64,000 bases of DNA from contig NZ_CP119422.1 in assembly GCF_030506285.1 (NCBI RefSeq), forward strand, positions 4,141,501 through 4,205,500, given 5' to 3'. Positions 28,236 through 60,311 of this stretch are shown here, piece by piece. The notes under the pieces are model-generated. The model was not told the DNA's origin, did no database searches, and worked only from the letters and a program-made list of their open reading frames with translations. Position numbers and translations under genes: made by a program. The stretch comes from Catalinimonas niigatensis (GTDB lineage Bacteria; Bacteroidota; Bacteroidia; Cytophagales; Cyclobacteriaceae). Numbering within the stretch: position 1 is the stretch's first letter; the number at the start of each line of letters is the position of its first letter.

Positions 28236-28339
28236 TTAAAAAAACATGCCATCCTTAAAAACAGTTTTTTGGACTTTCCAGGAAGGTATTTACAGTGCAA
28301 CACTGATCGTTATCGGACAATAATGTTCGTTTTAGGACA
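28236..28339 (-). promoter_or_regulatory. Shared permease regulatory module, copy A (divergent form)
   Basis: On the minus strand, TGTCC (28339) with AACGAACA and ATTGTCC forms the upstream half of the common site. The GATGGCATG box (28253-28245) lies 86 bases further down, against 77-78 in the other copies, followed by a T run; the pentamer at the -12 place is TTTAA. The downstream half of the palindrome is poorly kept. Start codon 28180 lies about 46 bases past the inferred transcription start. Confidence 0.5.
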
Positions 28340-28395
28340 TCCTCTTTGAGGAGTGTAAGTTGCCGCCAGACATAGTGGCTATGCTATGCTTGTTG

Positions 28396-28638
28396 TTAAG
28401 GAATCGGATAGAACATATCCTCTTTCCACCCCAGGGGATTGTCTCGGATATACTGGCGTATATGCTCCCATGCCCGGCTGTCGCGAACATGAAAACGGTC
28501 TTGCCAGAAAAAAAATATTCCTCTTTTCTGCGAGGGGTAGGATACTTTGCCTTTATACCAGCGCATCATTTTCAATGGTATCCTGCGGTAATTCCATAGG
28601 ATTTTTGCCGTCACGCCCACCATCTTTGATAGGAGCAA
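28396..28638 (-). pseudogene. C-terminal remnant of a REP-associated (Y1-type) transposase
   Basis: The only recognisable part is the C-terminal end of an IS200-like/RAYT transposase: LKMMRWYKGKVSYPSQ, then FFWQDRFHVRDSRAWEHIRQ and YIRDNPLGW, a pattern of the family's last helix region. The HUH motif and the catalytic tyrosine region upstream are missing, so it is a fragment. The recognisable match begins only around 28590; the residues before it are probably out-of-family sequence. It abuts a fragment of another gene. Confidence 0.6.
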
Positions 28639-28732
28639 AAGAGATGACTTCTATTCCTAAAATATTCTGACAAATTATATGGATTAAAGCTTCAAACTTC
28701 TCATCAGACAAAAGTTCTAAACGATAATCCAT
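28553..28732 (-). pseudogene. N-terminal fragment of a restriction-endonuclease-like protein
   Basis: A 59-codon frame starting at ATG 28732, MDYRLELLSDEKFEALIHII, and running to SFAPIKDGGRDGKN before diverging. The FE-x-L-h-x-x-I-x-x-x-I-L-G and DGGRDGK pattern resembles the start of PD-(D/E)XK-type nucleases. After residue ~45 the frame enters the transposase remnant in another phase and stops at 28555. It looks like a nuclease gene truncated by a transposase-linked deletion. Confidence 0.45.
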
Positions 28733-28764
28733 TGATTTGGGGCTTTTTATGCCACAATATACCT

Positions 28765-29724
28765 TTAACCCCTTTGCAGCAAAAAGACAATATAAGCGAT
28801 GTAGAATAGCAGAAACACCACACCGCTGATCCGGCCTACTGCCCGCTTTCTTTCCAGGCTTACCGACAGGATCAGCAAGGTGCTGGCAAAGATGATCATC
28901 AGAATATCAAAGTTGCTTAAAGTGTTGAAAGGCAAAGGATGGATGACTGCACTGATTCCCAGAATCCATAGGATATTAAATATATTAGAACCCACCGCAT
29001 TCCCTACAGCAATGTCTGTATTACGACGTTTGGCAGCCACTGCTGAAGTCACTAGTTCTGGCAAAGAAGTACCAATGGCCACTACCGTAAGGCCTACAAA
29101 ACTCTCACTCATCCCCAATTGGGTAGCCACATATACGGCTCCGTCTACCGTCCATTTACCTCCCAGAAAAAGGGCAACTACGCCCAGCAGTACCAGGCCG
29201 CTCGCCTTCAGCATAGGTTTCTCCTCGTAGCTTTCTACATGTTCTTCTTCGCCTCCCTCGCGGGATACTTTAAAGACATAGAGCATGAAAAGCACAAAGA
29301 AAAAGAGGAGTATTCCTCCGTCTATCCGGCTGATGCTCAGCCCCTGAGGCTTATCAAAAAGTGCGGCATTGGCGAGAAAACCTACCAGCAAAGCTGCCAT
29401 GAGTGAGAAAGGGATTTCTGACATGACCGTACCTCTTTGCAAAGGAAGTGGAAAAATGAGTGCTGCCACGCCTAGTATTAACAGTATATTGGCGATGTTG
29501 CTGCCAAAAACATTCCCCACCGCAATCTCGGCATTACCATTGAGGCTGGCAATAATATTCACCACCAGTTCAGGCATAGAAGTACCAAAGGATACTACCG
29601 TAAGACCAATGATAATATCGGGTACTTTGTATTTCTTAGCAATAGAAGAAGAGCCGTCCACCAACCAGTCTGCCCCTTTGATCAATAATACAAGTCCTAT
29701 TGCAAACAATATATAAGTCAACAT
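28765..29724 (-). CDS. Calcium/sodium antiporter (CaCA family, YrbG-like)
   Basis: A 319-residue inner-membrane antiporter with ~10 hydrophobic segments and two inverted alpha repeats: GLTVVSFGTSMPELVVNIIA with AVGNVFGSNIANILLILG (near 43-90), and GLTVVAIGTSLPELVTSAVA with AVGNAVGSNIFNILWILG (near 205-255). The acidic Glu in each GTS-x-PEL motif and the GSN residues form the ion site. A charged cytoplasmic loop (REGGEEEHVESYEEK) joins the halves. It probably exports Ca2+ in exchange for Na+. It stands alone on the minus strand beside the gene fragments. Confidence 0.92.
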   Translation of the reverse strand: MLTYILFAIGLVLLIKGADWLVDGSSSIAKKYKVPDIIIGLTVVSFGTSMPELVVNIIASLNGNAEIAVGNVFGSNIANILLILGVAALIFPLPLQRGTVMSEIPFSLMAALLVGFLANAALFDKPQGLSISRIDGGILLFFFVLFMLYVFKVSREGGEEEHVESYEEKPMLKASGLVLLGVVALFLGGKWTVDGAVYVATQLGMSESFVGLTVVAIGTSLPELVTSAVAAKRRNTDIAVGNAVGSNIFNILWILGISAVIHPLPFNTLSNFDILMIIFASTLLILSVSLERKRAVGRISGVVFLLFYIAYIVFLLQRG

Positions 29725-30161
29725 AAACTATTGGTATTAATCCACAATATTACAAAAGAAGAAGAGAAATTGATACAAATGCATTTGACCCCGGGCGATT
29801 AAATATTTTCTTCAGCAACCTAAAGGAAGTTGTAATGTAATTACTCAAAAAACAACTTTACTTCTGATGAACAATTGTCAGGCTTCTTAAGAAAGTACCA
29901 AAAGTCTGACTAACTGCTTAGAGGGAGGAATGCCGGAGTCATGCCGGAGAAAAGACGAAGGGAGGACGAAGAGCAATTCCTGGATAAATATAAGAACTGT
30001 ATAACTATCTTCCTGAAAAAGCTTTGCCCAAACGCAGGTATTTGCCTGTAATATTTTTCACAGCATTTAAATTTTCACTAAATTGGTAAGTGATGCACTG
30101 CGAGTTGCTAAAAGCAACCCGCTTTTTACTTTTATATTGCCAATCCATTAATACTTAACCT
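29725..30161. other. 437-base gap upstream of the cytochrome cluster
   Basis: No gene seen. It is AT rich with small repeats: ATGCCGGAG occurs twice near 29930-29960, and GACGAAG twice just after. AAGTTGT and ACAACTT form a seven-base inverted repeat near 29830-29870. The last 60 bases hold a hairpin with a T run. Promoters for the antiporter and for the PSD1 gene must lie here, but I could not fix one. Confidence 0.4.
30100..30127 (+). terminator. Terminator-like hairpin in the leader of the PSD1 gene
   Basis: GCGAGTTGC, loop TAAAA, GCAACCCGC (one mismatch), then TTTTT. There is no plus-strand gene upstream to end, so it could be an attenuator in the leader, 35 bases before the start codon. 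Confidence 0.4.
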
Positions 30162-32930
30162 ATGCCTGGCTTTTCTGCTATACGCTGGAAAACAAAATAT
30201 CTGATTCTCCCGGCAGTTGTGTTGTTACTGCTTTCCACCTATCTGGTATGGGAGAAAGGCATATTTGTCGATGACAAAATTGACTTCAATGCTGAAATCA
30301 GGCCGATCCTCAACAAAAAATGCATCACCTGCCACGGAGGCGTGAAGCGCTCCGGCGAGTTTAGCCTGCTCTTTCGCTCCGATGCCCTGGGCATCAATGA
30401 ATCGGGCAAGCGGGCTATTGTGCCCGGCAGCGTAGAAGAGAGTGAGATGATTCGCCGCATCACGCACCATGATCCCGAAGAAAGGATGCCTCCCGAAGGA
30501 GATGCCCTGCCTCAGGAAGAAATTGAATTGCTTACCCGTTGGATTGAGCAGGGAGCCTATTGGGAAGATCACTGGGCGTATATAAAACCGGAACCTGTTG
30601 AACCTCCTGCTTTACAGTCTGATTGGATACAAAATGAGATAGATAAGTTTGTGCTCCAACGCCTGCAAGAAGAAGAATTACAGCCTTCTTCCCGTGCGGA
30701 TAAAGCAACTTTGTTGAGGCGTGTGAGTCTTGATCTTAGCGGACTTCCGCCAACACCTACCGAATTGGAGGCCTTTCTGGCCGACTCCAGCGCTCAGGCT
30801 TATGAAAAGGTAGTAGATCGTCTGCTGGCTTCGCCCCGCTATGGAGAACGATGGACCGCCATGTGGATGGACCTGGCCCGCTATGCTGACTCCAAAGGTT
30901 ATGAGAAAGATGGACATCGTAATATCTGGAAATACCGCGACTGGGTGATCAGGTCTTTTAATGAAGATAAGCCTTTTGATCAGTTCACTATAGAGCAACT
31001 GGCGGGAGATCTGTTGCCTAATCCCACTGATGAGCAACTGATTGCCACAGCTTTTCATCGGAATACGATGAACAATGATGAGGGAGGTACAGATGATGAA
31101 GAGTTCCGCGTAGCTTCTGTCATAGACCGGGTCAATACTACCTGGGATGTATGGCAGGCTACCACCATCGCCTGTGTGCAATGCCACAGCCATCCCTACG
31201 ATCCTATTCGGCACGAAGAATATTATCAGTTTTATGCCTTTCTCAACAACACGGCTGACGCGGATGTACCCAGCGAGTCGCCTACGTTAAAGCAATTCAA
31301 GAATGAGGAAGATGGGCAAAAGCTGGAAGAGGTCAAAAACTGGGTCATCAAACACACCGCTTCTGCTGACGAAAAGCTGAAACGAGGCCAGGATATTGTC
31401 AAACTGGTGAAATTTACCGAACCCAAAATACATCCCCACTATTTTGATCAGATTGAAAAAGGTACTCTACAGGATGGGAAGTTTCTGCAAGTAGATCACG
31501 GAGGTCATGCCCGCATCAGGAATTTCTCTCTGGATGGAAAAGACCAGATACTCATCAGTTATCTGGCAGAAAAGACTTCCGGTAGGGTAGAATTCAGACA
31601 AGACAGCCCTGAAGGTGAATTGCTGGCTGAGTGGAAAATTGAGAAAGCAGAAGGAGGCTGGGGCAATTTTAGAAGAATAGCGCTTCCGCTAAAACCCGGC
31701 ACCGGCCGCCATGATATCTATATGGTTTTTAAAGATCCTGGCAGGAAAGGCCCCCTTTGCACGATTGAATGGACATTATTTCATCAGTCTTTACCTGGTG
31801 AAGAACAAGCCCAGTATCCTAAAGTGCAGCGCACTTTTTTGAGCCTGCTCAATACCAGAGAGGTAGAAGAAACGCCAGTCATGATAGAACGTCCGGAAGA
31901 TTTCCGTCGTAAAACCCATGTCTTTGTGAGGGGTAACTGGTTGGTAGATGGGGAAGAAGTAGCGCCTGATGTACCCAAAGCCTGGCCTGCTTTACCGGAA
32001 GGTGCCCCTAAAAATCGCCTGAGTATGGCGCAGTGGATGGTGAGCACAGAGAATCCTCTCACTGCGCGAGTAACTGTTAACCGCTTATGGGCGCAGTTGT
32101 TTGGCACAGGTATCGTAGAAACAGTAGAAGATTTTGGTACTCAGGGAGCTAAGCCCAGCCATCCTGAACTGCTGGACTGGCTGGCCATACAGTTTATGCA
32201 CGAGCATCAATGGAGCATCAAAAAGCTGCTGAAGCAGATGGTCATGTCTGCTACCTATCAACAGTCTTCCAAAGTAAGCCGGGAACAGCAGGAACGTGAT
32301 CCCGCCAATCAATGGCTAGCCAGAGGACCAAGAGTACGACTCAACGCGGAGCAAATCCGGGATCAGACCCTGGCAGTAAGTGGGCTGTTAAGCGATAAAA
32401 TGTATGGTCCCAGTGTGATGCCTCCTCAACCTGAAGGCATATGGCAGGTCGTCTATAGTGGACAAACATGGGAAACCAGTGAAGGAGAGGATCAATACCG
32501 GCGGGGCCTCTACACCTACTGGCGGCGCACCAGCCCTTATCCTTCCATGATCACTTTTGACAGTCCCAGCCGGGAGTTCTGTATGAACCGCCGTATCCCT
32601 ACCAATACACCCTTACAGGCTTTAGTTACCCTCAATGATCCTGTCTACATGGAAGCTGCCCGTTCACTGGCTCAACGGATGCTGCTTGAAGGAGGAGAAA
32701 GCACGGAAGAACGCATTGAAACTGCTTACAAAATAGCCATGCTCAAACCCATTGCGGATGAGAAGAAAGATGCTTTGTTGAATTTATACGATGAAGCTTT
32801 GACTTACTATCAGCAAAACCCGGAAGAGGCACTTAAAATGGTGGGAAAAAAAGAAAATCAGGCACTGGCAGCGCTCACTGTGGTGGCCAATGCAATTATG
32901 AATTTAGATGAATTTGTGACTAAAGGCTGA
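30162..32930 (+). CDS. PSD1 and planctomycete cytochrome c domain protein
   Basis: A 922-residue exported protein with an N-terminal membrane segment (LILPAVVLLLLSTYLVWEKG). It carries a planctomycete cytochrome c-type domain with heme motif NKKCITCHGG near residue 50, DUF1549 (PSCyt2, LLRRVSLDLSGLPPTPTEL near 185) and a C-terminal DUF1553 (PSD1, NRLWAQLFGTGIVETVEDF and FCMNRRIPTNTPLQALVTLN). A second Cys pair, CVQCHSHPYD, is seen near 345. It is the first gene of a three-gene plus-strand unit with a DUF1501 protein and a DUF2231/heme/LRR protein, a combination common in Planctomycetes and some Bacteroidota, where its role is unknown; redox breakdown of polysaccharide or organic substrates is often assumed. 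Confidence 0.9.
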   Translation: MPGFSAIRWKTKYLILPAVVLLLLSTYLVWEKGIFVDDKIDFNAEIRPILNKKCITCHGGVKRSGEFSLLFRSDALGINESGKRAIVPGSVEESEMIRRITHHDPEERMPPEGDALPQEEIELLTRWIEQGAYWEDHWAYIKPEPVEPPALQSDWIQNEIDKFVLQRLQEEELQPSSRADKATLLRRVSLDLSGLPPTPTELEAFLADSSAQAYEKVVDRLLASPRYGERWTAMWMDLARYADSKGYEKDGHRNIWKYRDWVIRSFNEDKPFDQFTIEQLAGDLLPNPTDEQLIATAFHRNTMNNDEGGTDDEEFRVASVIDRVNTTWDVWQATTIACVQCHSHPYDPIRHEEYYQFYAFLNNTADADVPSESPTLKQFKNEEDGQKLEEVKNWVIKHTASADEKLKRGQDIVKLVKFTEPKIHPHYFDQIEKGTLQDGKFLQVDHGGHARIRNFSLDGKDQILISYLAEKTSGRVEFRQDSPEGELLAEWKIEKAEGGWGNFRRIALPLKPGTGRHDIYMVFKDPGRKGPLCTIEWTLFHQSLPGEEQAQYPKVQRTFLSLLNTREVEETPVMIERPEDFRRKTHVFVRGNWLVDGEEVAPDVPKAWPALPEGAPKNRLSMAQWMVSTENPLTARVTVNRLWAQLFGTGIVETVEDFGTQGAKPSHPELLDWLAIQFMHEHQWSIKKLLKQMVMSATYQQSSKVSREQQERDPANQWLARGPRVRLNAEQIRDQTLAVSGLLSDKMYGPSVMPPQPEGIWQVVYSGQTWETSEGEDQYRRGLYTYWRRTSPYPSMITFDSPSREFCMNRRIPTNTPLQALVTLNDPVYMEAARSLAQRMLLEGGESTEERIETAYKIAMLKPIADEKKDALLNLYDEALTYYQQNPEEALKMVGKKENQALAALTVVANAIMNLDEFVTKG

Positions 32931-33028
32931 TAAAGATAGAGGTTAAAATTTGAAGGTTTAAAGTTTATGAAATTCAGGAGTAGCAGCTTTTACTTTTGAG
33001 ATATTGAAAAAATCAAAGAAACTAAAGT

Positions 33029-34522
33029 ATGAAACTTTTTGAGGAAGCACGGCTTCGTGCAGCAGAATTAGAAACCCGACGTCACTTTTTGAAGCAGTGC
33101 ACTTCGGGAATGGGAGGTATTGCTCTGGGCTCCTTGTTCGGTTGTAACCCTTTCTCAACTCCTGACCAGGCTCAGGCTGCTTCTCCGGTATCAATCAACC
33201 GCAACCCTTTGGCAGCGGCAGCACCACATTTTGCCCCCAAAGCCAAGCGTGTGATCTACCTGCACATGGCCGGAGCACCTTCTCAACTGGAATTGTTCGA
33301 TTACAAACCTGAACTGGCTAAACTGCATGGCCTGGACTGCCCTCAGTCACTGCTGGAAGGCAAGCGCTTTGCTTTCATACAGGGCGTACCCAAGATGCTG
33401 GGGCCTCAGGCTAAATTTGCTCCCCGGGGTCAATCCGGAGTACTAGTGTCTGACCTGCTTCCGCATTTTCATGAAGTAGTAGATGAAGCAGCCATCATCA
33501 AAACCCTGCATACCGATGAGTTCAACCACGCCCCGGCACAGCTACTGGTACAGACGGGAAGTTCACGTCTGGGGCGTCCCAGTCTGGGTTCATGGGCTAC
33601 TTACGGATTAGGCTCTGAAAATGAAAACCTGCCGGGCTTTATTGTCCTTGTTTCGGGAGGCAATACCCCTGATGCCGGTAAAAGTGTATGGGGAAGCGGC
33701 TTCCTGCCTACCGTATATCAGGGCGTACAATGCCGCTCCGAAGGTGATCCTGTGCTGTATGTCTCCAATCCTGATGGGATGAGCCGTGATCTGCGCCGTA
33801 AATCACTGGATGCCATCAACCGAATTAATGAGCAGGAATACCAGGAAATGGGTGATCCGGAAACATTGACGCGTATCTCTCAGTATGAGATGGCCTTTCG
33901 CATGCAGATTTCGGTACCGGAGATCATGGATATCTCTAAAGAACCGGATTATATTCACCAGATGTATGGCACTGAACCGGGTAAAGCTTCCTTTGCCAAC
34001 AACTGTCTGCTGGCCCGCCGCCTGAGCGAACGCGGTGTACGCTTTATACAGCTATACGATTGGGGCTGGGATACGCATGGCAGCAGTAAAGACGGGGCGA
34101 TAGAACATGGCTTCCGAGATAAGTGTAAGCAGGTAGATCAACCCATTGCCGCACTGATCAAAGACTTAAAACAAAGAGGATTGCTAGATGAAACGCTCAT
34201 TGTGTGGGGCGGGGAATTTGGCCGCACGCCCATGCAGGAAAACAGAAATGGCCGGGTGATGCCCTTTATGGGCCGCGACCACCACACCGAAGCCTTTAGC
34301 GTATGGATGGCAGGAGGTGGTGTTAAAGGAGGGGTGAGTTATGGAGAAACGGATGAGATTGGCTATTACGGAATCAAAGACCGGGTACACATTCATGATT
34401 TGCAGGCAACTATTCTCCACCTGATGGGTATGGATCATGAGCGGCTTACGTATCATTTTCAGGGGAGAGATTTTCGCCTCACCGATGTAGCCGGTAAGGT
34501 AGTGAAAGATATTTTGGCGTAA
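33029..34522 (+). CDS. DUF1501 family protein with Tat signal
   Basis: A 497-residue protein. The N-terminal [20 protein letters not shown] is a twin-arginine signal leading to a lipobox-like LFGC. The mature part matches DUF1501 of the alkaline-phosphatase-like fold: [20 protein letters not shown] near 75, [13 protein letters not shown] near 340 and [16 protein letters not shown] near 390, with Asp/His residues that would bind metals. It follows the PSD1 gene by 98 bases and precedes the DUF2231/heme gene by 69 bases. DUF1501 and PSD1 proteins are nearly always neighbours, and probably act together in the periplasm. Exact reaction unknown. Confidence 0.9.
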
Positions 34523-34591
34523 ATTACTTATATTGGAAAGTTATACTAATTTAACTCCCTGATTGAAAGGGCTTTTCAGATTACGACGATT

Positions 34592-36037
34592 ATGGATCAA
34601 ACAACCTCAGATTTAGTACTATTTTTTGGCAGATTTCATCCCCTGATCCTGCATTTACCGATCGGCTTTCTACTGATTGCCTTTCTGCTGGAAATCTTAT
34701 CCCGCTTCAAAAGATTTGCAAGCTACCAGCCTGCTGTAGGTTTCATTCTTTTTCTTGGCGCCATATCTGCTATCGTAGCCGCGGTGCTGGGACTGATGCT
34801 GGCACAGGGTGGAGGTTATGGTGAAGAACTTTTAAGTCTGCACCAGTGGCTGGGCATAGGCGCTGCACTCACTGCAGTAGTCGCACTGATCCTCCACTGG
34901 CAAGCCCGTAAGCAAGCTTCTCTTAAATTAGATAAAGCTTATATCTCAGTACTGTCAGTGATGATCGTCGTACTCATGGCTGCCGGCCACTATGGTGGTT
35001 CTCTTACCCATGGCTCCGACTACCTGACCCAGTACATGCCCAATCCTTTGCGTACGCTGGCTGGATTAGAACCCCGGGAAGAAAAGAAAGCAGTCCTGAT
35101 TACCAACCTGCCGGAAGCCCAGCTTTATCATGATATTATTTATCCTATCCTGGATGCCCGCTGTGTCTCCTGCCATAATCCCGAAAAACGTAAGGGAGAG
35201 CTGGAGATGCATACCGTGGAGGCGCTGCTGGAAGGAGGGGAAAACGGAGCTTTGTTTGAAGCCGGGAATCCTGCCGAAAGCCATATGATGAAGCGCATCC
35301 TGCTTCCTGAAGAAGATGAGGAGCATATGCCTCCTGATGGCAAAAGTCAGCTTACCGAGGAGCAAGTAGAATTGCTGAACTGGTGGATTGCAGAAGGAGC
35401 GCCTTTTGATAAGAAAGTAGCCCAGGTCAACGTCAGTGAAGACATCCAAAATGTGCTCAATACCCTGGTAGATCCCAATGCCAACAAAACTGAAGTTGAA
35501 ATATTGCTGGCCTCTGAAGTGCAGGCGGCTGAAGAACAAACTCTTTCTCAACTACAGACAAGCGGCGTACAAGTGATGCCGCTGGCAGCCCAGGTCAACT
35601 GGTTGCAGGTACGCATACCCATGACCGCTTCAGGGGACTCGCTGGTACAAACCTTAAGTCCGGTGGCCGGTCAGTTGACCTGGTTAGATATGGGTGACAC
35701 CCAAACCACGGATGAGGCACTAGCTGCCATCCCACAATTTACCAAACTCACCCGCCTGCATCTGGAAAACACACAGGTGACAGATAATGGATTGCAGCAC
35801 CTCAAAGATTTGCCTTATCTGGAATACCTCAACCTCTATGGTACAGAAGTGACTGATGAGGGGATACAGCAGCTGAAGGACTTGAAAAACCTGCGCAAGC
35901 TCTACCTCTGGCAGACCAAAGCTACCAAAGAAGGCGTAGCCCAACTACAGGAGGCTTTACCTCAGCTGGAAGTCAATATGGGCATAGAAAACTGGGGAGT
36001 AGTGGAAGCAGACAGTTCTGTAGCATTGAATGACTAA
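34592..36037 (+). CDS. Membrane DUF2231-like, heme c and leucine-rich-repeat protein
   Basis: A 481-residue protein. Residues 1-150 hold about four membrane segments resembling DUF2231 (FGRFHPLILHLPIGFLLIAF, ending MIVVLMAAGHYGGSLTHG). Residues ~185-270 hold a planctomycete-type cytochrome domain with heme motif ARCVSCHNPEKRKGELEMHT and the downstream MPPDGK. The C-terminal ~120 residues are leucine-rich repeats (LTRLHLENTQVTDNGLQHL, LEYLNLYGTEVTDEGIQQL, LRKLYLWQTKATKEGVAQL). The mix of membrane heme and LRR suggests a redox protein that also docks a partner, perhaps the PSD1/DUF1501 pair upstream. Function unknown. Confidence 0.8.
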   Translation: MDQTTSDLVLFFGRFHPLILHLPIGFLLIAFLLEILSRFKRFASYQPAVGFILFLGAISAIVAAVLGLMLAQGGGYGEELLSLHQWLGIGAALTAVVALILHWQARKQASLKLDKAYISVLSVMIVVLMAAGHYGGSLTHGSDYLTQYMPNPLRTLAGLEPREEKKAVLITNLPEAQLYHDIIYPILDARCVSCHNPEKRKGELEMHTVEALLEGGENGALFEAGNPAESHMMKRILLPEEDEEHMPPDGKSQLTEEQVELLNWWIAEGAPFDKKVAQVNVSEDIQNVLNTLVDPNANKTEVEILLASEVQAAEEQTLSQLQTSGVQVMPLAAQVNWLQVRIPMTASGDSLVQTLSPVAGQLTWLDMGDTQTTDEALAAIPQFTKLTRLHLENTQVTDNGLQHLKDLPYLEYLNLYGTEVTDEGIQQLKDLKNLRKLYLWQTKATKEGVAQLQEALPQLEVNMGIENWGVVEADSSVALND

Positions 36038-39080: not shown

Positions 39081-39680
39081 TTATCGCGTACTAATATTTT
39101 TTGAGTAGGCATAGTTTTCACCCTGGAGACTTAATGAATATTGTTTGTGCTGTAGGTGAGAAACATCCAGCCCGGTAGCAAATACCTCCTGAGAAGCTAC
39201 ATTGGTATTATAAATCAATTGACCGTTTTTGTCATACAGATTAAGCTTCATCGGAGAATTCATGGGATTCTTGAAAATCACCTTAATCATACCTGGTTCT
39301 GCCCTGACTACAGGTTTAAAGTATACAGCTTCATCCTGCTCAGCTTTTACGCTAAACCTTTGAGAAGTGACTCCCTCTTTGGTTCTTACCTGTACAATAT
39401 ACTCTTCGCCAGCAAGTCCTGAGAAGTCATACGTCCTGACAAAAGAAGGTTGTCCGTGGATGGTTTCAGCATGAAGTAACCGGCCTTTTTTATCTTTAAT
39501 TTTCAAGAAAGATTTCTGACCTTCCACCAGATTAGCTACACGGATGATAGCTTTTTTCTGATCAGTGGTACTTTGAGTAATGTTTAGTTGGGCTCCTGTT
39601 TTGTCTGAATTGTTGGCTAGTGCCATGCTGGAGTGGGTTATCGCGATAAGCAACAAAGCCACAAAGGTTACATTTTTCAT
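39081..39680 (-). CDS. Small secreted protein with beta-sandwich repeats
   Basis: A 199-residue protein. The open frame extends to an ATG at 39728, but I start at 39680, which opens the signal MKNVTFVALLLIAITHSSMALA. The mature part looks like two immunoglobulin-like units: VANLVEGQKSFLKIKDKKGR with TYDFSGLAGEEYIVQVRTK, and IFKNPMNSPMKLNLYDKNGQ with LDVSHLQHKQYSLSLQ. The second resembles the fold of DUF3244 or T9SS C-terminal sorting domains. Its upstream region carries a weak copy of the module shared by the permease genes, so it may belong to the same response. Function unknown. Confidence 0.6.
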   Translation of the reverse strand: MKNVTFVALLLIAITHSSMALANNSDKTGAQLNITQSTTDQKKAIIRVANLVEGQKSFLKIKDKKGRLLHAETIHGQPSFVRTYDFSGLAGEEYIVQVRTKEGVTSQRFSVKAEQDEAVYFKPVVRAEPGMIKVIFKNPMNSPMKLNLYDKNGQLIYNTNVASQEVFATGLDVSHLQHKQYSLSLQGENYAYSKNISTR

Positions 39681-40005
39681 TGATAATCTAATTTGGGTTA
39701 TAATAATGTTGTGCCATATATTAGACATATTGTCTGCCAGAAATAAAATGCCTCAAATTCCTGTAAAAAAGCACTTTGAGAGCTTTTTTGGTGTCCGTAA
39801 ATGAACAATTTATGTCCATTTGTGAAATGGAAAAACAAGGACCTGATCTCCTGAATTTTACAAACCTTATCAACCGTTTATAAAGCTCTCAAGAGCATTT
39901 GTAACCTTGAGACTGCAAAAAAAACAGCCAACAGATACTGGATTCTGCTGGCTGTCTTTATGAATAAAAGGGCATTTTTATTTCAATCCATTACTCATAA
40001 TGATT
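39681..40005 (-). promoter_or_regulatory. Gap with possible shared regulatory module, copy E, and permease terminator
   Basis: On the minus strand there is TGGACATAAATTGTTC, then TACGGACA ending at 39792, close to the common palindromic site. The match to the GATGGCAT box is weak: GAGGCAT (39754-39748) lies about 37 bases past the inner edge against 42 in three other copies, and a perfect TGGCAC is at 39716-39711. The upstream part (39916-39955) is the terminator of the permease. AAAGTGCTTTTTTAC near 39765-39780 resembles a segment of copy C. Confidence 0.4.
39916..39955 (-). terminator. Terminator of permease copy 2
   Basis: On the minus strand ACAGCCAGCAGA, eight-base loop, TCTGTTGGCTGT (one G-U), then a T run. 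It ends the gene that stops at 40006. Confidence 0.8.
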
Positions 40006-48106: not shown

Positions 48107-50536
48107 TCATTCATCTCTCAAACTTTCAACCGGGTTGCGGATGGCAGCACGAACGGTCTGCGAGCCCACTGTGATCCAGGCGACGAGGAGCGCAATCGTA
48201 CCGGCCATCAGGAAAATACCTATCCCCAGTGTATCGTAGTAAGCAAAATTAGTCAGCCAGCGGCTCATCAGGAAATACGCCAGTGGACATGCCAGCAGGA
48301 AAGCGATCAGTACCAGCTTGGAAAAACCACGGGTCAGTAGCAATAAGATCTGGCTCACCGAAGCGCCCATTACTTTGCGAATCCCTACCTCTTTGGTACG
48401 CTGCTCAGCTACAAAAGAGGCCATACCAATCAATCCCAAAGCCGCAATGAATAGCGCCAGACCAGAAAACAGCAGCACTACCTGGCTAAGCTTGTCTTCT
48501 TTGGTGTACTGCTTATCAAAACGCTCGCTAACGGTGTAAAAATTGAACGGAAAGCCCGGCATGAGGTAGTCCCACTGCTCTTTTAAGTAGCCAAGCGCTT
48601 CGTCATTGGCTGTATCGTCTAGCCGAACGACCAGACGGTGCGGCCGGAGGCCAGTTGTAATCTGAAAGACAATGGGAGAGATAGGCTGGTGTAAAGATTC
48701 AAAATGAAAATCCTGTACTACGCCAATCACATACCCTTGTCGCATGCCATAGTTTATTTTCTTCCCAACTGCATCTTCAGGAGAAGTCCAGCCTATCCTG
48801 CGTACTGCTGTTTCATTAAGAATAAATGCTTCGGTAGAGTCGCTGGACCGATCAATATCAAAATCACGCCCGGCAATCAGCGCTAGCTGGAAAGCATTAA
48901 GAAAATCATGGTCCACATGCACCTCAGCCAGGCGAAAGTTGATATTCTTGATTTCACCATACACTTCAGCATTTCCTCTCTGGGCATCCAGCAAGCTTCC
49001 GGAAGGAACGCGACTGCTGAGGGTAACATCGCTGATGCCAGGCTGTCGGACCAGGCGGGCCTTAAGCTGTTCGTACTGCTGATTGATCGTTTCATTGACC
49101 GGCAGCACCAGCAGGTTTTCCCGATTGAAGCCCAGGGGTTTGTTCTTTACGTAATCAAGTTGTTTTTCTATGGTAAATACGCCGATAATGAGTATGATAG
49201 AAATGGTAAATTGCAGTACCACCAGTCCGGAGCGGAAATTTGCATGTTTGCTGCGGGGCACAAAACCGCTTTTGAGGATTCTGGCGGGAAGAAAAGAGGA
49301 GAGAAAAAAAGCAGGATAGCTACCTGCTACCACACCCACCACCAATACAATAGTAAATAGCAGTACGGCTACGAAAGTGTTCTCCAGTATACTTACCGAT
49401 AGTTGCTGTCCTACAAAAACATTGAAAAAGGGCAAGGTGAGTTCTACCAGTAGCAAAGCTGCCATCAGCGAAAACAGCGCAATAAGTACTGATTCTGACA
49501 AAAACTGGCGGATGAGCGAACTTCTTGCTGCTCCCATCACCTTACGTACACCCACTTCTTTGGCCCTTCGCCCCGCCCGGGCAGTGGATAGGTTGATGAA
49601 GTTGATGCAGGCGATGAGGATGAGAAAAAAAGCGATGATGGTATACAGATATATGTAGCTGATGCTGCCATTATCTTCAATTTCTGAATCCAGATGAGAG
49701 TAGAGGTGAATATCAGCCAGAGGCCATAGGTGCAGGAAGTCTACTTCAGAAGCAGGCGTTCCGTCGGCAGAGAGTGCGATATGCCGGTCCATAAAATCAG
49801 GAAAACGAGACGCTAAGGTTTGGGGATCATACCCTTCCGCAAGTAGTAAATAGGTAGACATGTAATTGCTGGCCCAATTGGCTGTCATTTCTTCTTTTCC
49901 CAGATAGTTCTCCAGCGTAGCAAAAGAAACCAGCATATCAAAGTGAAAGTGAGTATTGGCCGGGACATCAGCGGTTATGCCTGTCACTTTCAGGTCCAAT
50001 GTGTTGGCATAGGTCAGTACCTTCCCCAGAGGATCTTGATCTCCAAAGTAACGTTGCGCGGCACTTTCAGTAAGCACAATGGAATTAGGCGCTGTTAAGG
50101 CTGTTTTGGGATCGCCTTGCACCAATGGAAAACTAAAAACCTGGAAGATACTGGGTTCGGCAAAGAACAATTGATCTTCTTCCATCAGTACATCTCCTTC
50201 TTCGTAGGCCAGCGCTACGCCTCTGTCATCCCTTACCATACGAACAGCCTGCTCTATAGCTTCGGGAAAATCATTGGCCAGCATAGGAGCAAAGGGAGGT
50301 GCGAGATGTCCCAGATGTAAATTGGTTTCTCCATCCTCATTGTGCCACTCCCGCGAGATTCGGTAAATCCGATCGGCGTTTTCGTGGTAGCGATCATAAC
50401 TTAATTCGTGTTGTACAAACAACAGAATCAGGATACAAGCTGCCATACCAACTGCTAAACCCATGATATTAATCAATGTAGTTTGTTTGTGCCTAATCAG
50501 ATTTCGCAGTGCGATTTTGATATGGTTTTTTAACAT
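48107..50536 (-). CDS. Double-FtsX ABC transporter permease, copy 5
   Basis: An 809-residue two-unit permease starting MLKNHIKIALRNLIRHKQTT. Coupling motifs: AKEVGVRKVMGAA (near 330) and TKEVGIRKVMGAS (near 720); C-terminus NPVESLRDE. It has the best-kept copy of the shared regulatory module, ending 37 bases before its ATG, and is divergent from the glycoside-hydrolase-like gene. It probably heads an operon with copy 4. No ATPase gene lies nearby, so the energy-coupling subunit, if any, is elsewhere. Cargo unknown. Confidence 0.9.
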   Translation of the reverse strand: MLKNHIKIALRNLIRHKQTTLINIMGLAVGMAACILILLFVQHELSYDRYHENADRIYRISREWHNEDGETNLHLGHLAPPFAPMLANDFPEAIEQAVRMVRDDRGVALAYEEGDVLMEEDQLFFAEPSIFQVFSFPLVQGDPKTALTAPNSIVLTESAAQRYFGDQDPLGKVLTYANTLDLKVTGITADVPANTHFHFDMLVSFATLENYLGKEEMTANWASNYMSTYLLLAEGYDPQTLASRFPDFMDRHIALSADGTPASEVDFLHLWPLADIHLYSHLDSEIEDNGSISYIYLYTIIAFFLILIACINFINLSTARAGRRAKEVGVRKVMGAARSSLIRQFLSESVLIALFSLMAALLLVELTLPFFNVFVGQQLSVSILENTFVAVLLFTIVLVVGVVAGSYPAFFLSSFLPARILKSGFVPRSKHANFRSGLVVLQFTISIILIIGVFTIEKQLDYVKNKPLGFNRENLLVLPVNETINQQYEQLKARLVRQPGISDVTLSSRVPSGSLLDAQRGNAEVYGEIKNINFRLAEVHVDHDFLNAFQLALIAGRDFDIDRSSDSTEAFILNETAVRRIGWTSPEDAVGKKINYGMRQGYVIGVVQDFHFESLHQPISPIVFQITTGLRPHRLVVRLDDTANDEALGYLKEQWDYLMPGFPFNFYTVSERFDKQYTKEDKLSQVVLLFSGLALFIAALGLIGMASFVAEQRTKEVGIRKVMGASVSQILLLLTRGFSKLVLIAFLLACPLAYFLMSRWLTNFAYYDTLGIGIFLMAGTIALLVAWITVGSQTVRAAIRNPVESLRDE

Positions 50537-50572: not shown

Positions 50573-50667
50573 TGAAAAAAGTATGCCATCACCTAATCTG
50601 ACGTATAAAGTGATTTAAGCCTCTTTTTTTATGTCCAATTAAGAACAGTTATGTGCGTTAGTGGACA
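50573..50667 (-). promoter_or_regulatory. Shared permease regulatory module, copy B
   Basis: On the minus strand TGTCCACTAACGCACA (from 50667) and, after a few bases, TGTTCTTAATTGGACA (ending 50632) form a 36-base near palindrome. GATGGCATA (50590-50582) lies 77 bases from the outer edge; TGGCAT, five bases, TTTCA resembles a sigma-54 -24/-12 promoter with T for G at the -12 element. The inferred transcription start is ~27 bases before the ATG of copy 5. Confidence 0.6.
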
Positions 50668-52942: not shown

Positions 52943-55331
52943 TTACTCATTTCTTAAGCTCTCTACCGGATTGGCCAGGGCAGCACGGGCAGTCTGGAAA
53001 CTGATGGTAACCATAGCGACCAAAAGAGAAATTACACCGGCAAAGACAAATACCCATGCACCTATGTCTATTCTAAATGCAAAGCCTGCCAGCCACTTCT
53101 GTATCAGAAAGTAGCTTACGGGAACGGCAATCAGGAAAGCCAGGATAACCAGCAGGGGAAAATTTCTGGAAAGCACCAGCAGAAGCTGAGAAAGCGAAGC
53201 ACCTAGCACTTTGCGGATACCAATTTCTTTGGTGCGCTGCTCGGTCGTAATGGAAGCGAGTCCGAACAAGCCCAGGCAGGCAATGATAATCGCCAGACCT
53301 GCGATAATAGATACGATACTGCTCATCAGAGCGATACAATGTGTCAAAATGGTCGTCTAAAAACGCATATTCAAAAGGCCTGTCACTGACCATGCTGTTC
53401 CATACCGCTTCTACCTCGCTGATGGTCTGCGCCATATTGTCGGGACTTATTTTAACTGAAAGTTCACTGAAACCCCATTCCGGATGAATATGCATGCAAA
53501 GGGTATTGACCGAATGATGCAGAGAATTGAAGTTGAAATTCTGCGTCACGCCAACGATAGTACCCAGCGTATCATCATTGTACCAGCCAAAACCAAAACG
53601 AGCGCCCACCGGATCTTCCAGTCCCAGTTCATCCGCCAGTTCCTGGTTGATGATAAAGCCAAAACCCGCATCGGTAGCATGTTCTCTGGAAAAATCGCGA
53701 CCATCTTTCAGTTGTATATCATACACTTTCAGGAAGTCATGATCCACATTGATTTGCGAGACGGTCAACTGGCGCATTACCGTATCGGTTTTCAGCTTGG
53801 CTCCCGTCTGGTGCAGGTTGTTGCCCATCCGCTGCCCCGAAGCGGTCACCCCTTTGACACCCGTTTGTTTGGCCAGTTCATTTTTAAGTGTTTCATATTT
53901 TTCATTGGCCTCCCGGCTCATGGGGATCAGCATCATCTGCGCTTTGTCAAAGCCAATGTCTTTGCTTTTCATAAACTGGAGTTGCTGCAAGGCCAGCACT
54001 GTACCTACAATCAGGGCGATAGCGATGGCAAACTGTACCACGACCAGCCCGTTTCTCAAGAATAATTTTCTACCATAATTTTCCAGTTTGCCTTTCAGCA
54101 CTTTTACGGTCTGGAAGGAAGACAAAAAGAAAGCAGGATAAGCACCGGACAGAATCCCCACCAGGCAAGCCAGCACGATAACTCCCAAAAGCACCCCAGG
54201 ATGTTCGCCAAGCGTCAGCAAGGACAAAGTGCGATTGGTGAGGCTATTCAGATAAGGAATAAAGATCGTAGCGATCATTAGCGCAAGAAAGAGTGCCATA
54301 AAAGTCAATAGTACTGATTCTCCTAAAAACTGATTGATCAGTTGCTTCTTCAGCGCACCGATGGCCTTACGAATCCCCACTTCTTTGGAACGGGTAGCCG
54401 AGCGTGCTACTGACAAATTCATGAAATTGATGCTGGCAATCACCAGTACAAAAAAGGCCAGGATAGAAAATACTTTGATGTAGGTGCGGTCAAACTTGCG
54501 GTAATTCTGATAGTCGTGCTCAATATCCATGGAACCGAGGTGCACATCTTCCAGAGATTGCAGAAAAAGGGTGTAATAGTCCGTCGCCTCTTCATCCATA
54601 TGAGATTGCAGAAACGCAGGGAATTTGCTTTCCAGATTTTCAATACTGGTCTGTGGCTCCAGCAGCAGGTAGGTGACCATAAAATTGGAACCCCAGCGGT
54701 CGTTGAATTCAGGGTTTTCTCTGGTCACAGAATTGATGGACAATAGTGCATCAAACTGAAGGTGCGAATTTTCCGGCACATCTTCCAGCAAGCCGGTCAC
54801 TTTGTAGTTTTTATCGTCAATCACGATCTGCTCATCCAGCACATCCGTTCTGCCAAAAAACTTCTGTGCTGTTTCTTCGGTAAGAATGATGCTGTTGGGT
54901 TCATCCAGTGCCGTCTCAGAATCACCCTGCAGCAGTTTGAAGTCAAAGATTTCCAGAAAGGTAGAATCCACCACGGCAGTCCTGTTGACCATCAGCTCTC
55001 TGGCTTCCTGCTTGTACATCAGGTTTTCCCAGTTCCAGAAACGGCTGAAATCCACAATCTCAGGCATCTCATTGAGCAGATTAGGGCCCATACCTGGCAT
55101 GGAGAGCGCCACATTTTGCGGATTCATGCCTTCAAAAGACTGCACCTCATCCAGGCGGTAGATGCGGTCTTTCTTCTGATGAAAGCCATCAAAGCTCAGT
55201 TCATCGCTGATGAAGAGGAAGATCACCAGACAAGCCGCCATACCAATGGCCAGCCCAAAAACATTGATAAAAGCATAGATTTTATGCTTCGCCAGATTGC
55301 GAAAGGCAGTGATAAGATAGTTTTTGAACAT
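52943..55331 (-). pseudogene. Double-FtsX permease, copy 6, with a frameshift
   Basis: A permease of the same build, starting MFKNYLITAFRNLAKHKIYA, with coupling motifs SKEVGIRKAIGA (near 330) and TKEIGIRKVLGAS. The frame breaks near 53319-53326, after LYRSDEQ, and the rest (IVSIIAGLAIIIACLGLFGL to NPVESLRNE) continues in another frame. If an extra copy of the eight bases ATGAGCAG is restored, the frame closes as LYRSDEQMSSIVSII and the length matches the paralogs exactly. So this is an eight-base contraction of a tandem repeat, or an assembly or sequencing error. If real, the last TM segments are lost and the protein is probably non-functional. Confidence 0.85.
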
Positions 55332-55363
55332 GGTACCGGTGTTATGGACAAACAGCTTTCCCG

Positions 55364-55458
55364 GGAAAAAAGCATGCCATCCCCAAAACCAGCGTGTAAA
55401 GCACTTTTATGGTGTTTTTTTATGTCCACAAAAGAACAATTTTGTGCGTTAGTGGACA
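55364..55458 (-). promoter_or_regulatory. Shared permease regulatory module, copy C
   Basis: On the minus strand TGTCCACTAACGCACA (from 55458) and TGTTCTTTTGTGGACA (ending 55423) form a 36-base near palindrome, almost identical to copy B. GATGGCATG (55381-55373) lies 77 bases from the outer edge; TGGCAT, five bases, TTTCC follows. Inferred start ~23 bases before the ATG of the frameshifted permease. Confidence 0.6.
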
Positions 55459-56901: not shown

Positions 56902-57106
56902 TAATCATCGTTCTTTTAAAAACACCACAACATCTGGACAGGCATATTGTGCATATACTCCTAAAATAAATAATTTTGTATACTTAATCTATTCAGTTTT
57001 GTGTGATAATAGCTTTAAATCATTTGTTATAAGGTATACATGCTTATGCACTTTATCACCTCACAAGATAGATTGAAGTAGAAAATTCATTATCATTCTT
57101 CATTCA

Positions 57107-59788
57107 TCATTCACTCCTCAAACTATCTACCGGATTGGAGGTGGCGGCTTTCATGGATTGATAGACAATGCTAAGGCTGGCAATCACCACAATGATGCCT
57201 CCTGCCAGCAGGAACACCGGCGCTCCCAGATCAATCTGATAGGCAAAATCTGCCAGCCAGCGTTTCATCATTAGGTAGGAAACAGGAACTGCCACCAGAA
57301 AAGCGATGCCAATCAGCAACATAAATTCTTTATAAGAAAGCGCCATCACCTGCCATACCGAAGCCCCCAGCACCTTGCGGATACCGATCTCTTTGGTCTT
57401 CTTGCTCATGGAAAGTGTGACCAGTCCAAACAGGCCCAGACAGGAAATAAAGATGCCTAAGGCTGTAGTAATGCTTAGGATGGTACTCAGGCGCTCTTCT
57501 GCCCGGTATTGGGCGTCTAACTTTTCATCTACAAAGGAAAATTCAAACTGCTGGTCAGGAGCCACTTCTTTCCACACTTCCTTGAGTTTATCCACCGTTT
57601 GTGCCAAATTTTCCGACTGAACTTTTACCGATATCTTAGGGGTAGAATTATCTTCAAACATTACGTTCTCACTTCCCTTAAAGATACCATAGGGATTCAT
57701 TACCAGCAGGGCAGGCTCTATGGCAGCGTGTAAAGACTGATAGTGAAAATCGCTGAGTACGCCGACCACCTGATACTCCTGAAAAGGAGGGGGGAGCGTA
57801 CTGCCTACTGCCTCTTTCAGGTTGAATGCCCGGGCAAAAGTCTCGTTGATCAATACTCCTGAGCGAGCATCGGCTCCGCTCTCCTCATCAAAATCCCTGC
57901 CCTGAAGCATTTCTAATCCATAGGTTTTTACAAAGTCCTGATCCACAGCATTCATGTTGAATTCGCGGTAGGTTCCTTCTTCCGTAGTAAAGCCTACTTC
58001 TATCCAGCCTGATTGCCCAAAGGTGAAGAAAGAGGTGGTGACTTCTTTGACTTCCGGCAGGCGGCCAAGCGCATTTTGGATCAGTTGCTTTCTCCCGAAA
58101 TTTTCTTCCATAAACTGCTCCATCGTGCTGCCCGACATACGGTTTTGCATGTTTTGAGGAATCACTACGATCTGCTCTTTGTCAAAGCCCAGGTTCTTAT
58201 TTTGCAGATACGTCATTTGCTGCTTCATCACCAGCGTACCTATGATCAGGATAGCCGCCAGTACAAACTGAAAAGCGACCATTCCTTTCCGCAGGGTTTC
58301 CCGGCTATAGCCCATGTTCATGCTACCCCGGAGTATCATCAGGGGCGAGAAACCGGAGAGGATAAGTGCGGGATAAACACCGGCCAGAAAGCCCACCACC
58401 CATACCAAACCCAGCAAAAACAATATGTTTTGTAAGCTTATCAGGAAGCTAAGCTCTTTGCCCGCCAACTGATTGAAATAAGGCAGCAAAACTATGACTA
58501 ATAGGATGCCTAAAAGGATAGAGATAAAAGTAATCAGAAAGGCTTCGCTCCAGAACTGAGACATCAGTTGGCGACGCACTGCACCTACCACTTTTCTTAC
58601 GCCTACCTCTTTGGCTCTACTCAAAGAACGTCCTACCGCCAGGGTCACAAAGTTGATGCAGGCTACTACCAGGATCAGCAGGGCCACTGCCGAAAGGATG
58701 TATACATATTTCCAGTCGCTGACTGCTACTCCTCCCTCGGGAAATTCCGTATTGAGGCGAATATCTGTCAGGGGCTGTAGGCCGACTTTATATTCTCCCG
58801 GCTTATAGTTCTCGCCCAGCACCTGCTTCACCATGGCATCCAGCTTGCCTTCCAGGGTCATCGCATGGGTCTGTTCATCCAGCAAGGCATAGGTTTCCAC
58901 GCTGACATTGTACCAGCTTGCCCGTCCTCTTTCGCCGGTAAAAGCTTTGTTGTTATCATAAGGAATCAGCATGTTGTACTGTAGGCTTACGTTAGAAGGT
59001 AGATCCGCCACCACCCCGCTTACATTAAACGCCTGAAATTGATTGCCCAATTTGATGGATAATGTTTTGCCAATAGGATCTACATTACCAAAATATTTGA
59101 CAGCATAAGATTTAGTAAGCACCAGGTCCTGTAGCTTGCTTAGCGACACTTCTCCACTCAGCACTTCGTTATTAAACAGTTGGAAGAATTGAGGATCAGC
59201 ATAAAAGACTTTTTCGCTTTGCGTATCCCCTCCTTTTTGGACCAAGGATGAAAAATTTCCTACCCGCACCGAAGCCTTCACTTCTGAGAAATTAGAATCC
59301 AGGGCCGGGCCTAACGGCATAGGAGTATGTGTATTGAAAAATACTTCATCAGGACCATAATCTTCCAGTACCCAGGCCCGGTAAATCCGGTCGGCATGGG
59401 TATAAGAGCGGTCAAAAGAAAGCTCATCCTGTACGTAGAGCCAGATCAGGATGCAAAAAGTAAAGCTTACCATCAGCCCGGATATGTTGATGAGGGAGTA
59501 CAATTTCTGTTTGATTAAGTTTCTGTAAGCAACTTTGAAATAATTTTTAAACATGGCGCTTGAATTAGCAGGTTGTGAAAACTGTCTTTTGGCAATGAAA
59601 TAGGGTCTGAAAAAAGTAAGCACATTCATCCAGTAGCGGAGATTGGCTTTTTTAATACCCTCTTCGCCTATCCATTCCAGATAAGATTCGTGCAAATCCC
59701 CTTCAATCTCCGGTAGCAGCTCAGGATCGCAGAACCAGCGGAGGAATTGTTGTGCACGATGGGGTGGTTGGTTTTTTTGGGCTATCAT
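57107..59788 (-). CDS. Double-FtsX permease with N-terminal prefix domain, copy 7
   Basis: An 893-residue permease. I start at ATG 59788, not the TTG at 59815 that lies within the PadR gene. The prefix domain (AQQFLRWFCDPELLPEIEGD, then WMNVLTFFRPYFIAKRQF) matches that of copy 3. The core has the coupling motifs AKEVGVRKVVGA and TKEIGIRKVLGAS and ends NPVDSLRSE. It lies seven bases after the PadR stop codon, so they form one operon controlled by the shared module (copy D) and PadR itself. Cargo unknown; no ATPase nearby. Confidence 0.9.
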   Translation of the reverse strand: MIAQKNQPPHRAQQFLRWFCDPELLPEIEGDLHESYLEWIGEEGIKKANLRYWMNVLTFFRPYFIAKRQFSQPANSSAMFKNYFKVAYRNLIKQKLYSLINISGLMVSFTFCILIWLYVQDELSFDRSYTHADRIYRAWVLEDYGPDEVFFNTHTPMPLGPALDSNFSEVKASVRVGNFSSLVQKGGDTQSEKVFYADPQFFQLFNNEVLSGEVSLSKLQDLVLTKSYAVKYFGNVDPIGKTLSIKLGNQFQAFNVSGVVADLPSNVSLQYNMLIPYDNNKAFTGERGRASWYNVSVETYALLDEQTHAMTLEGKLDAMVKQVLGENYKPGEYKVGLQPLTDIRLNTEFPEGGVAVSDWKYVYILSAVALLILVVACINFVTLAVGRSLSRAKEVGVRKVVGAVRRQLMSQFWSEAFLITFISILLGILLVIVLLPYFNQLAGKELSFLISLQNILFLLGLVWVVGFLAGVYPALILSGFSPLMILRGSMNMGYSRETLRKGMVAFQFVLAAILIIGTLVMKQQMTYLQNKNLGFDKEQIVVIPQNMQNRMSGSTMEQFMEENFGRKQLIQNALGRLPEVKEVTTSFFTFGQSGWIEVGFTTEEGTYREFNMNAVDQDFVKTYGLEMLQGRDFDEESGADARSGVLINETFARAFNLKEAVGSTLPPPFQEYQVVGVLSDFHYQSLHAAIEPALLVMNPYGIFKGSENVMFEDNSTPKISVKVQSENLAQTVDKLKEVWKEVAPDQQFEFSFVDEKLDAQYRAEERLSTILSITTALGIFISCLGLFGLVTLSMSKKTKEIGIRKVLGASVWQVMALSYKEFMLLIGIAFLVAVPVSYLMMKRWLADFAYQIDLGAPVFLLAGGIIVVIASLSIVYQSMKAATSNPVDSLRSE

Positions 59789-59795
59789 AGCAGTA

Positions 59796-60128
59796 TCAAA
59801 TGTTGTCCCAGGCAATTCTTGGAATACTTTCCCACATGCGGTTGCGCATCATACGGCTCTCTTCCAGCGCTCGCTTTCCGTAGGCCGTCACGCGAAATAG
59901 TCTTTTCGGACGTCCGCCTCTTTCCTCGGTAGCACCTCCCATGCGGGAGATCAGAAATCCCTTATCTTCCAGGCGATTGAGGGCTGCATGCACTGTACTG
60001 AGCGTCATGCTCCTTCCCGTCTGTTTTTCTATCTCATCTTTGATGCTCACCCCATAGGCATCGTCATACAGTACGCCCACTGCCAGCATTACGAGCTCCT
60101 GAAGTTCGCCAAGGTTTGTTCCTTTCAT
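59796..60128 (-). CDS. PadR family transcriptional regulator, copy 2
   Basis: A 110-residue PadR-type winged-helix protein (LGELQELVMLAVGVLYDDAY, then LSTVHAALNRLEDKGFLISR and ERGGRPKRLFRVTAYGKRAL), paralogous to the copy at 45.2-45.5 kb. It directly precedes permease copy 7. Its promoter region carries the shared module D. It is divergent from the hybrid two-component gene, separated by 441 bases. Confidence 0.9.
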   Translation of the reverse strand: MKGTNLGELQELVMLAVGVLYDDAYGVSIKDEIEKQTGRSMTLSTVHAALNRLEDKGFLISRMGGATEERGGRPKRLFRVTAYGKRALEESRMMRNRMWESIPRIAWDNI

Positions 60129-60215
60129 AGTCTATCAAATGGTTGGCATGAAGAATCTTTGAAGAAAAGTACTGCAACAATATTTTCAGGCCAAGGATTA
60201 GTTTCGTAAATGACG

Positions 60216-60311
60216 ATCAAACGGAGTGCCATCTGTGTATACAGACTGGAAAGGCCATTTTTCCCTTTTTATTCTGTACGTTTCTGTACAAATGATGCAC
60301 AAGAATGGACA
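60216..60311 (-). promoter_or_regulatory. Shared permease regulatory module, copy D
   Basis: On the minus strand TGTCCATTCTTGTGCA (from 60311) and TTTGTACAGAAACGTACA (ending 60275) give a variant of the common site, 37 bases long. GATGGCAC (60233-60226) is 78 bases from the outer edge, followed by five bases and TTGAT, the closest match to a sigma-54 -24/-12 pair in this window. It drives the PadR-permease copy 7 unit. Confidence 0.55.

Follow-up and report, generated by a model that had tools for sequence, protein, structure and literature searches.

In a 64,000-nucleotide stretch of the Catalinimonas niigatensis genome (NZ_CP119422.1, positions 4,141,501 to 4,205,500; hereafter the window), four units encoding FtsX/MacB-like permeases are preceded by the same arrangement of tandem dyads and a TGGCAY-like box. 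We interpret these regions, with a probability of roughly 85%, as sigma-54-type promoters whose tandem dyads are served by a two-component pair encoded elsewhere in the genome, the enhancer-binding protein EBP1 and its kinase HK1, and which drive an HlyD-ABC operon, dispersed permeases and other genes. Genome comparison directly documents the operator, its geometry, its linkage to EBP1 and its conservation; judged from these, the scattered permeases are probably switched on by one conserved two-component activator, as are other genes, among them several envelope genes. Window coordinates are positions in the 64,000-nt stretch, and other large coordinates refer to the 7.13-Mb genome. An earlier sequence-only reading had described four TGTCC...GGACA sites followed by GATGGCA boxes before permease units, and all four are present, on the minus strand, each ahead of a minus-strand permease unit:

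28304..28339, minus strand: site A, two tandem 16-bp dyads with a 4-bp spacer, proposed to bind EBP1; one mismatch to TGTNCN6GNACA-N4-TGTNCN6GNACA
28236..28251, minus strand: box of site A, TGGCATGTTTTTTTAA, a -24/-12-like element; 53 bp from dyad edge to TGG
25817..28180, minus strand: permease A, 787 amino acids (aa); two MacB_PCD and two FtsX stretches
50632..50667, minus strand: site B, two tandem dyads with a 4-bp spacer; exact match to the pattern
50573..50588, minus strand: box of site B, TGGCATACTTTTTTCA; 44 bp from the dyad edge
48107..50536, minus strand: permease B, 809 aa; a second permease (45654-48032) starts 74 bp further on
55423..55458, minus strand: site C, two tandem dyads with a 4-bp spacer; exact match to the pattern
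55364..55379, minus strand: box of site C, TGGCATGCTTTTTTCC; 44 bp from the dyad edge
53073..55331, minus strand: permease C, 752 aa; two MacB_PCD stretches and one FtsX stretch
60275..60311, minus strand: site D, two tandem dyads with a 5-bp spacer; one mismatch
60216..60231, minus strand: box of site D, TGGCACTCCGTTTGAT; 44 bp from the dyad edge
59796..60128, minus strand: first gene of unit D, encoding a PadR-like regulator of 110 aa; the site D dyads lie ahead of it, and it precedes permease D
57107..59815, minus strand: permease D, 902 aa; permease prefix domain 2 and MacB_PCD/FtsX

Each 36-37-bp block is composed of two tandem imperfect 16-bp dyads of the form TGTNC-N6-GNACA, 4-5 bp apart; in the direction of the gene, the site B operator reads TGTCCACTAACGCACA-TAAC-TGTTCTTAATTGGACA. 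Sites B and C had been described as near identical over a single 36-base palindrome. Their operators are indeed near identical, but the single palindrome gives way to two dyads: TGTCCN{24,26}TGGACA occurs at seven distinct places in the genome, three of them before permeases, against 3 and 2 on the two strands for the reversed control, and is thus a poor description. Two tandem dyads fit the set of sites far better. With up to one mismatch allowed, a genome-wide scan of the kind the sequence-only reading had proposed found the tandem pattern at 13 places with a 5-bp spacer and 8 with a 4-bp spacer (21 in total), the reversed pattern at none, and none of the 21 sites within an open reading frame (ORF) of at least 100 aa kept by our script. 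The fixed positions of the 42 dyads are nearly invariant, which is partly imposed by the search pattern, and the free positions 6 and 11 are biased as well (93% purine and its complement). We built an operator profile from seven of the 21 sites, chosen by eye, leaving 14 outside the profile.

The sigma-54 layout suggested earlier for the window regions is supported by the position of the box relative to the dyads. The -24 element TGGCAY lies within 90 bp of 14 of the 21 sites (shuffle mean 2.2, maximum 7), and TGGCAYN5TTG is found at 8 (shuffle mean 0.06). Restricting the count to the 14 non-profile sites gives TGGCAY within 90 bp at 8 (shuffle mean 1.54, maximum 5), TGGCAYN5TTG at 6 (0.04, maximum 1) and TGG[CT]N7TTG at 10 (0.48, maximum 4); among 19 sites from relatives, TGGCAY is present at 11 (1.81, maximum 6). 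When these 40 tandem sites are considered together, 23 of 28 TGGCAY matches fall at 43-45 or 52-56 bp. The unequal box spacings noted in the window (86 versus 77 bases) are 53 versus 44 bp when counted from the dyad edge, a difference of about one helical turn; a choice between distances one turn apart fits an activator obliged to face the polymerase. A phased TGG[CT] (42-45 or 52-56 bp, windows picked after viewing these same sites) is present at 18 of the 21 own and 14 of the 19 relatives' sites, compared to 1-3 in shifted windows. We then used 24 sites from other genera, fetched once the window was fixed (24 of 33 further sites), as an out-of-sample set. TGGCAY is in phase at 17 of them, and shifts of +5, -5, +16, -16 and +26 give 0, 0, 1, 0 and 1; for phased TGG[CT] the count is 21, and the same five shifts give 4, 3, 4, 2 and 4. 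Tests and controls alike counted boxes on either flank. The box aims at a co-directional ORF (at least 60 aa, within 600 bp) at 17 of 21 own, 13 of 19 early relatives' and 18 of 24 further sites.

In the 36 phased boxes, the first and second T of the -12 element are kept in 89% and 92% of cases, giving the TGGCAY-N5-TT spacing typical of sigma-54 promoters. This second element reads TT(G/T), and an A or G usually comes next. An alternative would have the dyads bind another dimeric regulator, such as PadR, at sigma-70-type promoters with TGGCAY as part of the site. PadR-like genes head two of the 21 units and the GC expected at -12 is missing, but this alternative is hard to reconcile with a TGGCAY at either of two phased distances that differ by about one turn, with a TT spacing typical of sigma-54, or with the presence of the dyad at EBP1-family loci of many genera, and we regard it as very improbable. 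Sequence and geometry together argue that these promoters would depend on sigma-54. The genome encodes rpoN (one Sigma54_DBD match, E 1.9e-55) and nine strong sigma-54 enhancer-binding proteins (EBPs), three of which adjoin a kinase and permeases. As the sequence-only reading had pointed out, the window itself holds no such activator gene; the likely cognate is EBP1, more than 3 Mb away:

genome 386561-387958 (L055 10562-11959), outside the window: EBP1, a response regulator with REC, AAA+ and Fis-type helix-turn-helix (HTH) domains
L055 11949-13298: HK1, the partner membrane kinase, with two N-terminal hydrophobic stretches and a very short loop between them

Domain searches identified all three EBP1 domains, the AAA+ domain being of the sigma-54 interaction type. 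The EBP1 loop reads GAFTDA where an NtrC-type protein is expected to have GAFTGA, and the available text of PMC4641369 lists GAFTDA among the loop variants that would keep activity. The neighbours of EBP1 and HK1 encode HlyD, ABC, two permeases, a second ABC, OEP and one further permease. The layout of HK1, a membrane hairpin with a tiny outer loop, we take to be that of kinases sensing within the membrane. Three of the 21 tandem sites are at this locus (384036, 386353 and 394874), 386353 lying between the HlyD-ABC operon and EBP1, and this linkage suggests that EBP1 binds the dyads; HK1 presumably phosphorylates EBP1.

The same sigma-54 mechanism could operate with the dispersed sites served by one or more EBPs other than EBP1. 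The number of strong EBPs, the permease loci beside three of them and the relatedness of the paralogues EBP2 and EBP3 to EBP1 (54% identity) would all allow this. However, the 10 kb on either side of each of the remaining eight strong EBPs contain none of the 21 tandem sites, and the permease promoters of the EBP2 and EBP3 clusters bear different dyads, related in kind but longer. Those of EBP2 carry a 17-bp type, whose 2 tandem places each precede a permease (control 0), and the EBP3 cluster has an 18-bp type for which the evidence is weak (2 of 4 exact places before cluster permeases, control 3). We therefore consider service by another EBP unlikely. One permease promoter of the EBP2/EBP3 clusters bears the full TGGCATAGCCCTTGCA. 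The two paralogous kinase-EBP pairs, EBP2 (L057, L221) and EBP3 (L059, L060, L222, L223), mostly have adjoining permeases, and one permease reading frame of the EBP2 cluster (genome 766239-766898, L057) is interrupted by an in-frame TAA and may be a pseudogene.

The association of the dyads with EBP1 extends to other genomes. EBP1 is 94-95% identical in two same-genus genomes, and its gene is divergent from HlyD-ABC in 7 of 14 other-genus stretches, once with an intervening gene. We examined 80 EBP1-family loci, the best 80 of 342 by EBP1 alignment, drawn from Cytophagales, other Bacteroidota and metagenome-assembled genomes (MAGs) with other labels; their identity range of 58-70% implies that some are paralogues. 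In the gaps able to drive EBP, HlyD, ABC or permease genes, an exact dyad is present at 42 of the 80 loci and a dyad with at most one mismatch at 57, compared to 0 and 7 for the reversed sequence; a permease is present at 37. The 56 box distances at these loci cluster mostly at 41-44, 51-55, 63-66, 72-76 and 84-89 bp (Rayleigh p 1.4e-10 at 10.5 bp), although 21-bp steps may reflect a degenerate neighbouring dyad and the loci are related by ancestry. Several HlyD promoters of other genera carry the element TGGCACNNNTGTTGGC. Eight of the family's loci are in MAGs labelled Zixiibacteriota, Latescibacterota, Acidobacteriota and KSB1 (L270, L271, L273, L277, L278, L291, L299, L303), four of them with exact dyads in the gaps (L270, L277, L278, L291), indicating either horizontal spread or mis-binned contigs.

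The operator itself also recurs in other genomes. With a spacer of 4-5 bp, exact tandem matches number 58 in 18 of 98 family genomes, our own included, and the reversed counterpart has none in all 98; two other genomes of the genus hold 7 and 6 exact sites. At the 43 relatives' sites with examined neighbours (the 19 early sites and the 24 of 33 further ones), the first gene reading away from the site on one side encodes a permease at 18, and a permease, HlyD or ABC gene is among the first two such genes at 30. Four further sites adjoin genes for TonB-receptor-like outer-membrane proteins, the phased box aiming at such a gene only in L322.

In C. niigatensis, 12 of the 21 sites stand ahead of permease or efflux units. 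Nine have a permease unit head no more than 400 bp downstream, against an expectation of about 0.05 from the genome fraction concerned (~0.24%); two more, 2448507 and D, precede PadR-permease units, and the twelfth, 386353, precedes HlyD-ABC. The other nine adjoin genes for a pentapeptide protein, an SSF symporter, an NlpE/META protein, a family-less 321-aa protein, an ECF sigma factor, a DUF3108 protein and two copies of a 62-aa ORF, while 5933356 is without a clear target. Viewed from the permeases, 43 unit heads (drawn from 62 places, not all of them duplicated permeases, since some are MacB-type genes of 360-440 aa or partial matches) include 9 with a site within 400 bp and 11 with a site within 1,100 bp. 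The regulon of orphan permeases proposed earlier thus stands in part: it is not made up of permeases only, and a single regulon for all permeases is rejected by the 11 of 43 heads and by the other dyad types of the EBP2 and EBP3 clusters. Our best reading is a regulon that takes in roughly one permease unit in four along with other genes, and the varied neighbours of own and relatives' sites indicate that several, not all, of its targets are envelope proteins.

These neighbours also bear on whether the similarity among the sites merely reflects recent duplication of permease genes together with their upstream DNA. The near identity of the B and C operators is what duplication would produce, and it could hold for these two only. 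For the whole set it is refuted, and we give it almost no weight, as sites also precede unrelated genes (NlpE/META, ECF sigma factor, DUF3108 and pentapeptide proteins), the non-fixed dyad bases vary, and the pattern recurs in other genera. Two of the unrelated targets deserve description. The 62-aa ORF is present in two identical copies (L143 5068-5256 and 6257-6445; genome near 2071067 and 2072256), and a tandem dyad and TGGCACGGCTATTGGCTT precede both copies; both same-genus genomes (L172, L177) have comparable ORFs in the same arrangement, none was found in L318, and the product is possibly a small regulon protein. The ECF sigma factor gene (L147 4126-4800; genome 2911125) lies behind a tandem dyad and TGGCACATATATTGG, so that the regulon may feed a second sigma factor.

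Several observations weigh against the assignment of these promoters to sigma-54 and EBP1. Because the profile and the phase windows were derived from the own and early relatives' sites, only the 24 later sites constitute a clean test. The -12 element lacks its usual GC, as the sequence-only reading had remarked: TT is kept in ~90% of the 36 phased boxes and followed by G in 67%, but the next position is C in only 14%, and A, B and C have TTT instead of TTG. A phased TGG[CT] is missing from 3 of 21 own, 5 of 19 early relatives' and 3 of 24 further sites, including all three sites of genome G019 and the own sites 384036 and 4447749, which nevertheless precede permeases. The box lies on the flank opposite the permease or ABC gene in L326 and L336, and at own site 702354 it is directed away from the symporter. 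As for the targets, 9 of the 21 own sites are not ahead of permease or efflux genes, and 32 of the 43 permease unit heads have no tandem site within 1,100 bp. As for the activator, 38 of the 80 EBP1-family loci lack an exact dyad in the gaps examined, and across 24 genomes the exact tandem pattern is present in 6 whereas EBP1 relatives (E <= 1e-90) are present in 19, our own genome being in both counts; elsewhere, then, either the operator has diverged or the regulon comprises few genes.

Assignment to EBP1 and HK1 leads to the following mechanism. HK1, a two-helix membrane hairpin with almost no outer loop, probably senses envelope disturbance and would phosphorylate EBP1. EBP1 oligomers would then occupy the tandem dyads, some 4 or 5 turns upstream on the same face of the helix, and from either phased distance contact RpoN-polymerase at TGGCAY-N5-TT, leading to an open complex and transcription. 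The predicted targets are the HlyD-ABC operon beside EBP1, the dispersed FtsX/MacB-like permeases, the PadR-permease units and others, including several envelope genes. That the dispersed permeases borrow the ATPase of the EBP1 locus is a guess. A bolder extension, less likely than not, is that HK1-EBP1 commands dispersed, ATPase-less, duplicated FtsX-like permeases, which would be interchangeable modules of one envelope-stress export machine and share the ABC, HlyD and OEP of the EBP1 locus, with the EBP2 and EBP3 pairs and their own dyads as parallel branches. Duplicated orphan FtsX/MacB permeases form large families, mostly without assigned function, in Bacteroidota and other phyla. With an operator, a phased promoter and a specific candidate for the activator, the matter is reduced to a small set of direct tests; the target list points towards the cell envelope, and the motif can be used to read the same regulon in other genomes. 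The sites also form a group of sigma-54-like promoters that usually have another base instead of the -12 C.

The earlier view that this regulon is undescribed holds for the operator and the activator, on which nothing was found in the open-access literature searched, but not for the link between sigma-54 and FtsX. Predicted sigma-54 promoters across bacteria are enriched before COG0577/FtsX-like permeases in Bacteroidia (PMC12316311, 2025), a result that its authors call the first evidence for a link between the FtsX-like family and sigma-54. That prediction shares promoter kind, permease family and phylum with the present sites; its available text reports the enrichment by orthologous group and gives, for the present system, neither an operator and its geometry nor an activator or a list of targets, the four elements that are new here. 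The GlrR/QseF system resembles that of EBP1 in combining a two-component EBP with sigma-54 and TGTC...GACA dyads, several per promoter. Its site, however, is given in the available text of PMC8745638 as TGTCN10GACA, an 18-bp dyad, compared to the 16-bp TGTNC-N6-GNACA described here, and EBP1 reaches 293 bits where the GlrR model has a cut-off of 763; on dyad length and score, membership of GlrR was rejected. The best NCBIfam match of EBP1 is the PEP-CTERM response regulator (TIGR02915), which has the same overall build, but at 397.1 bits versus a cut-off of 502.6 this identity was also rejected.

For the permeases, the closest comparison is the ADOP family (TIGR03434) with its PadR partner (TIGR03433), which likewise has two MacB/FtsX modules per protein, forms a large paralogous family and has PadR partners. 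ADOP genes usually lack an adjacent ATPase, which is part of the definition of the family. Internal duplication is found in the window, each of seven permeases containing two MacB_PCD stretches, and ABC_tran was not seen in the 30 window proteins scanned, a subset of the window ORFs; the permeases at the EBP1 locus do have ABC. Five window permeases score 236-302 bits against the TIGR03434 cut-off of 622.3, under half, and the window PadR scores 32 against 101.8 for TIGR03433, so neither was assigned to these families. The EBP1 locus, with its ABC ATPase, HlyD adaptor, OEP and permeases, resembles MacAB-TolC and darobactin-type exporters, from which the window permeases differ in having no ATPase among the scanned proteins; identity with DarB was rejected, the DarB and MacB scores being far below cut-off.

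The fifth, weaker match that had been noted before a secreted-protein gene was also recovered, by the operator profile (E 2.7e-6); it is neither among the 21 tandem sites nor in the profile:

39791..39826, minus strand: site E, an exact dyad, TGTTCATTTACGGACA, beside a degenerate one
39724..39739, minus strand: box of site E, TGGCAGACAATATGTC, with TGGCAG 52 bp from the block edge
39081..39728, minus strand: possible target, a protein with weak DUF3244 and C-terminal sorting-domain matches

The site E box sits at the listed start of this ORF, and a later in-frame ATG is therefore more likely to be the true start. Regulators near the window sites were rejected as candidates for the common activator, since an AraC-type hybrid sensor adjoins site D only and PadR genes head just two of the 21 units. 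The former (60570-63374), divergent from site D, is a hybrid two-component protein with a periplasmic binding domain, kinase, receiver and AraC-type HTH. Elsewhere in the window, 30162-36037 contains genes with PSCyt1, DUF1549, DUF1553 and DUF1501 domains, an arrangement known from planctomycetes.

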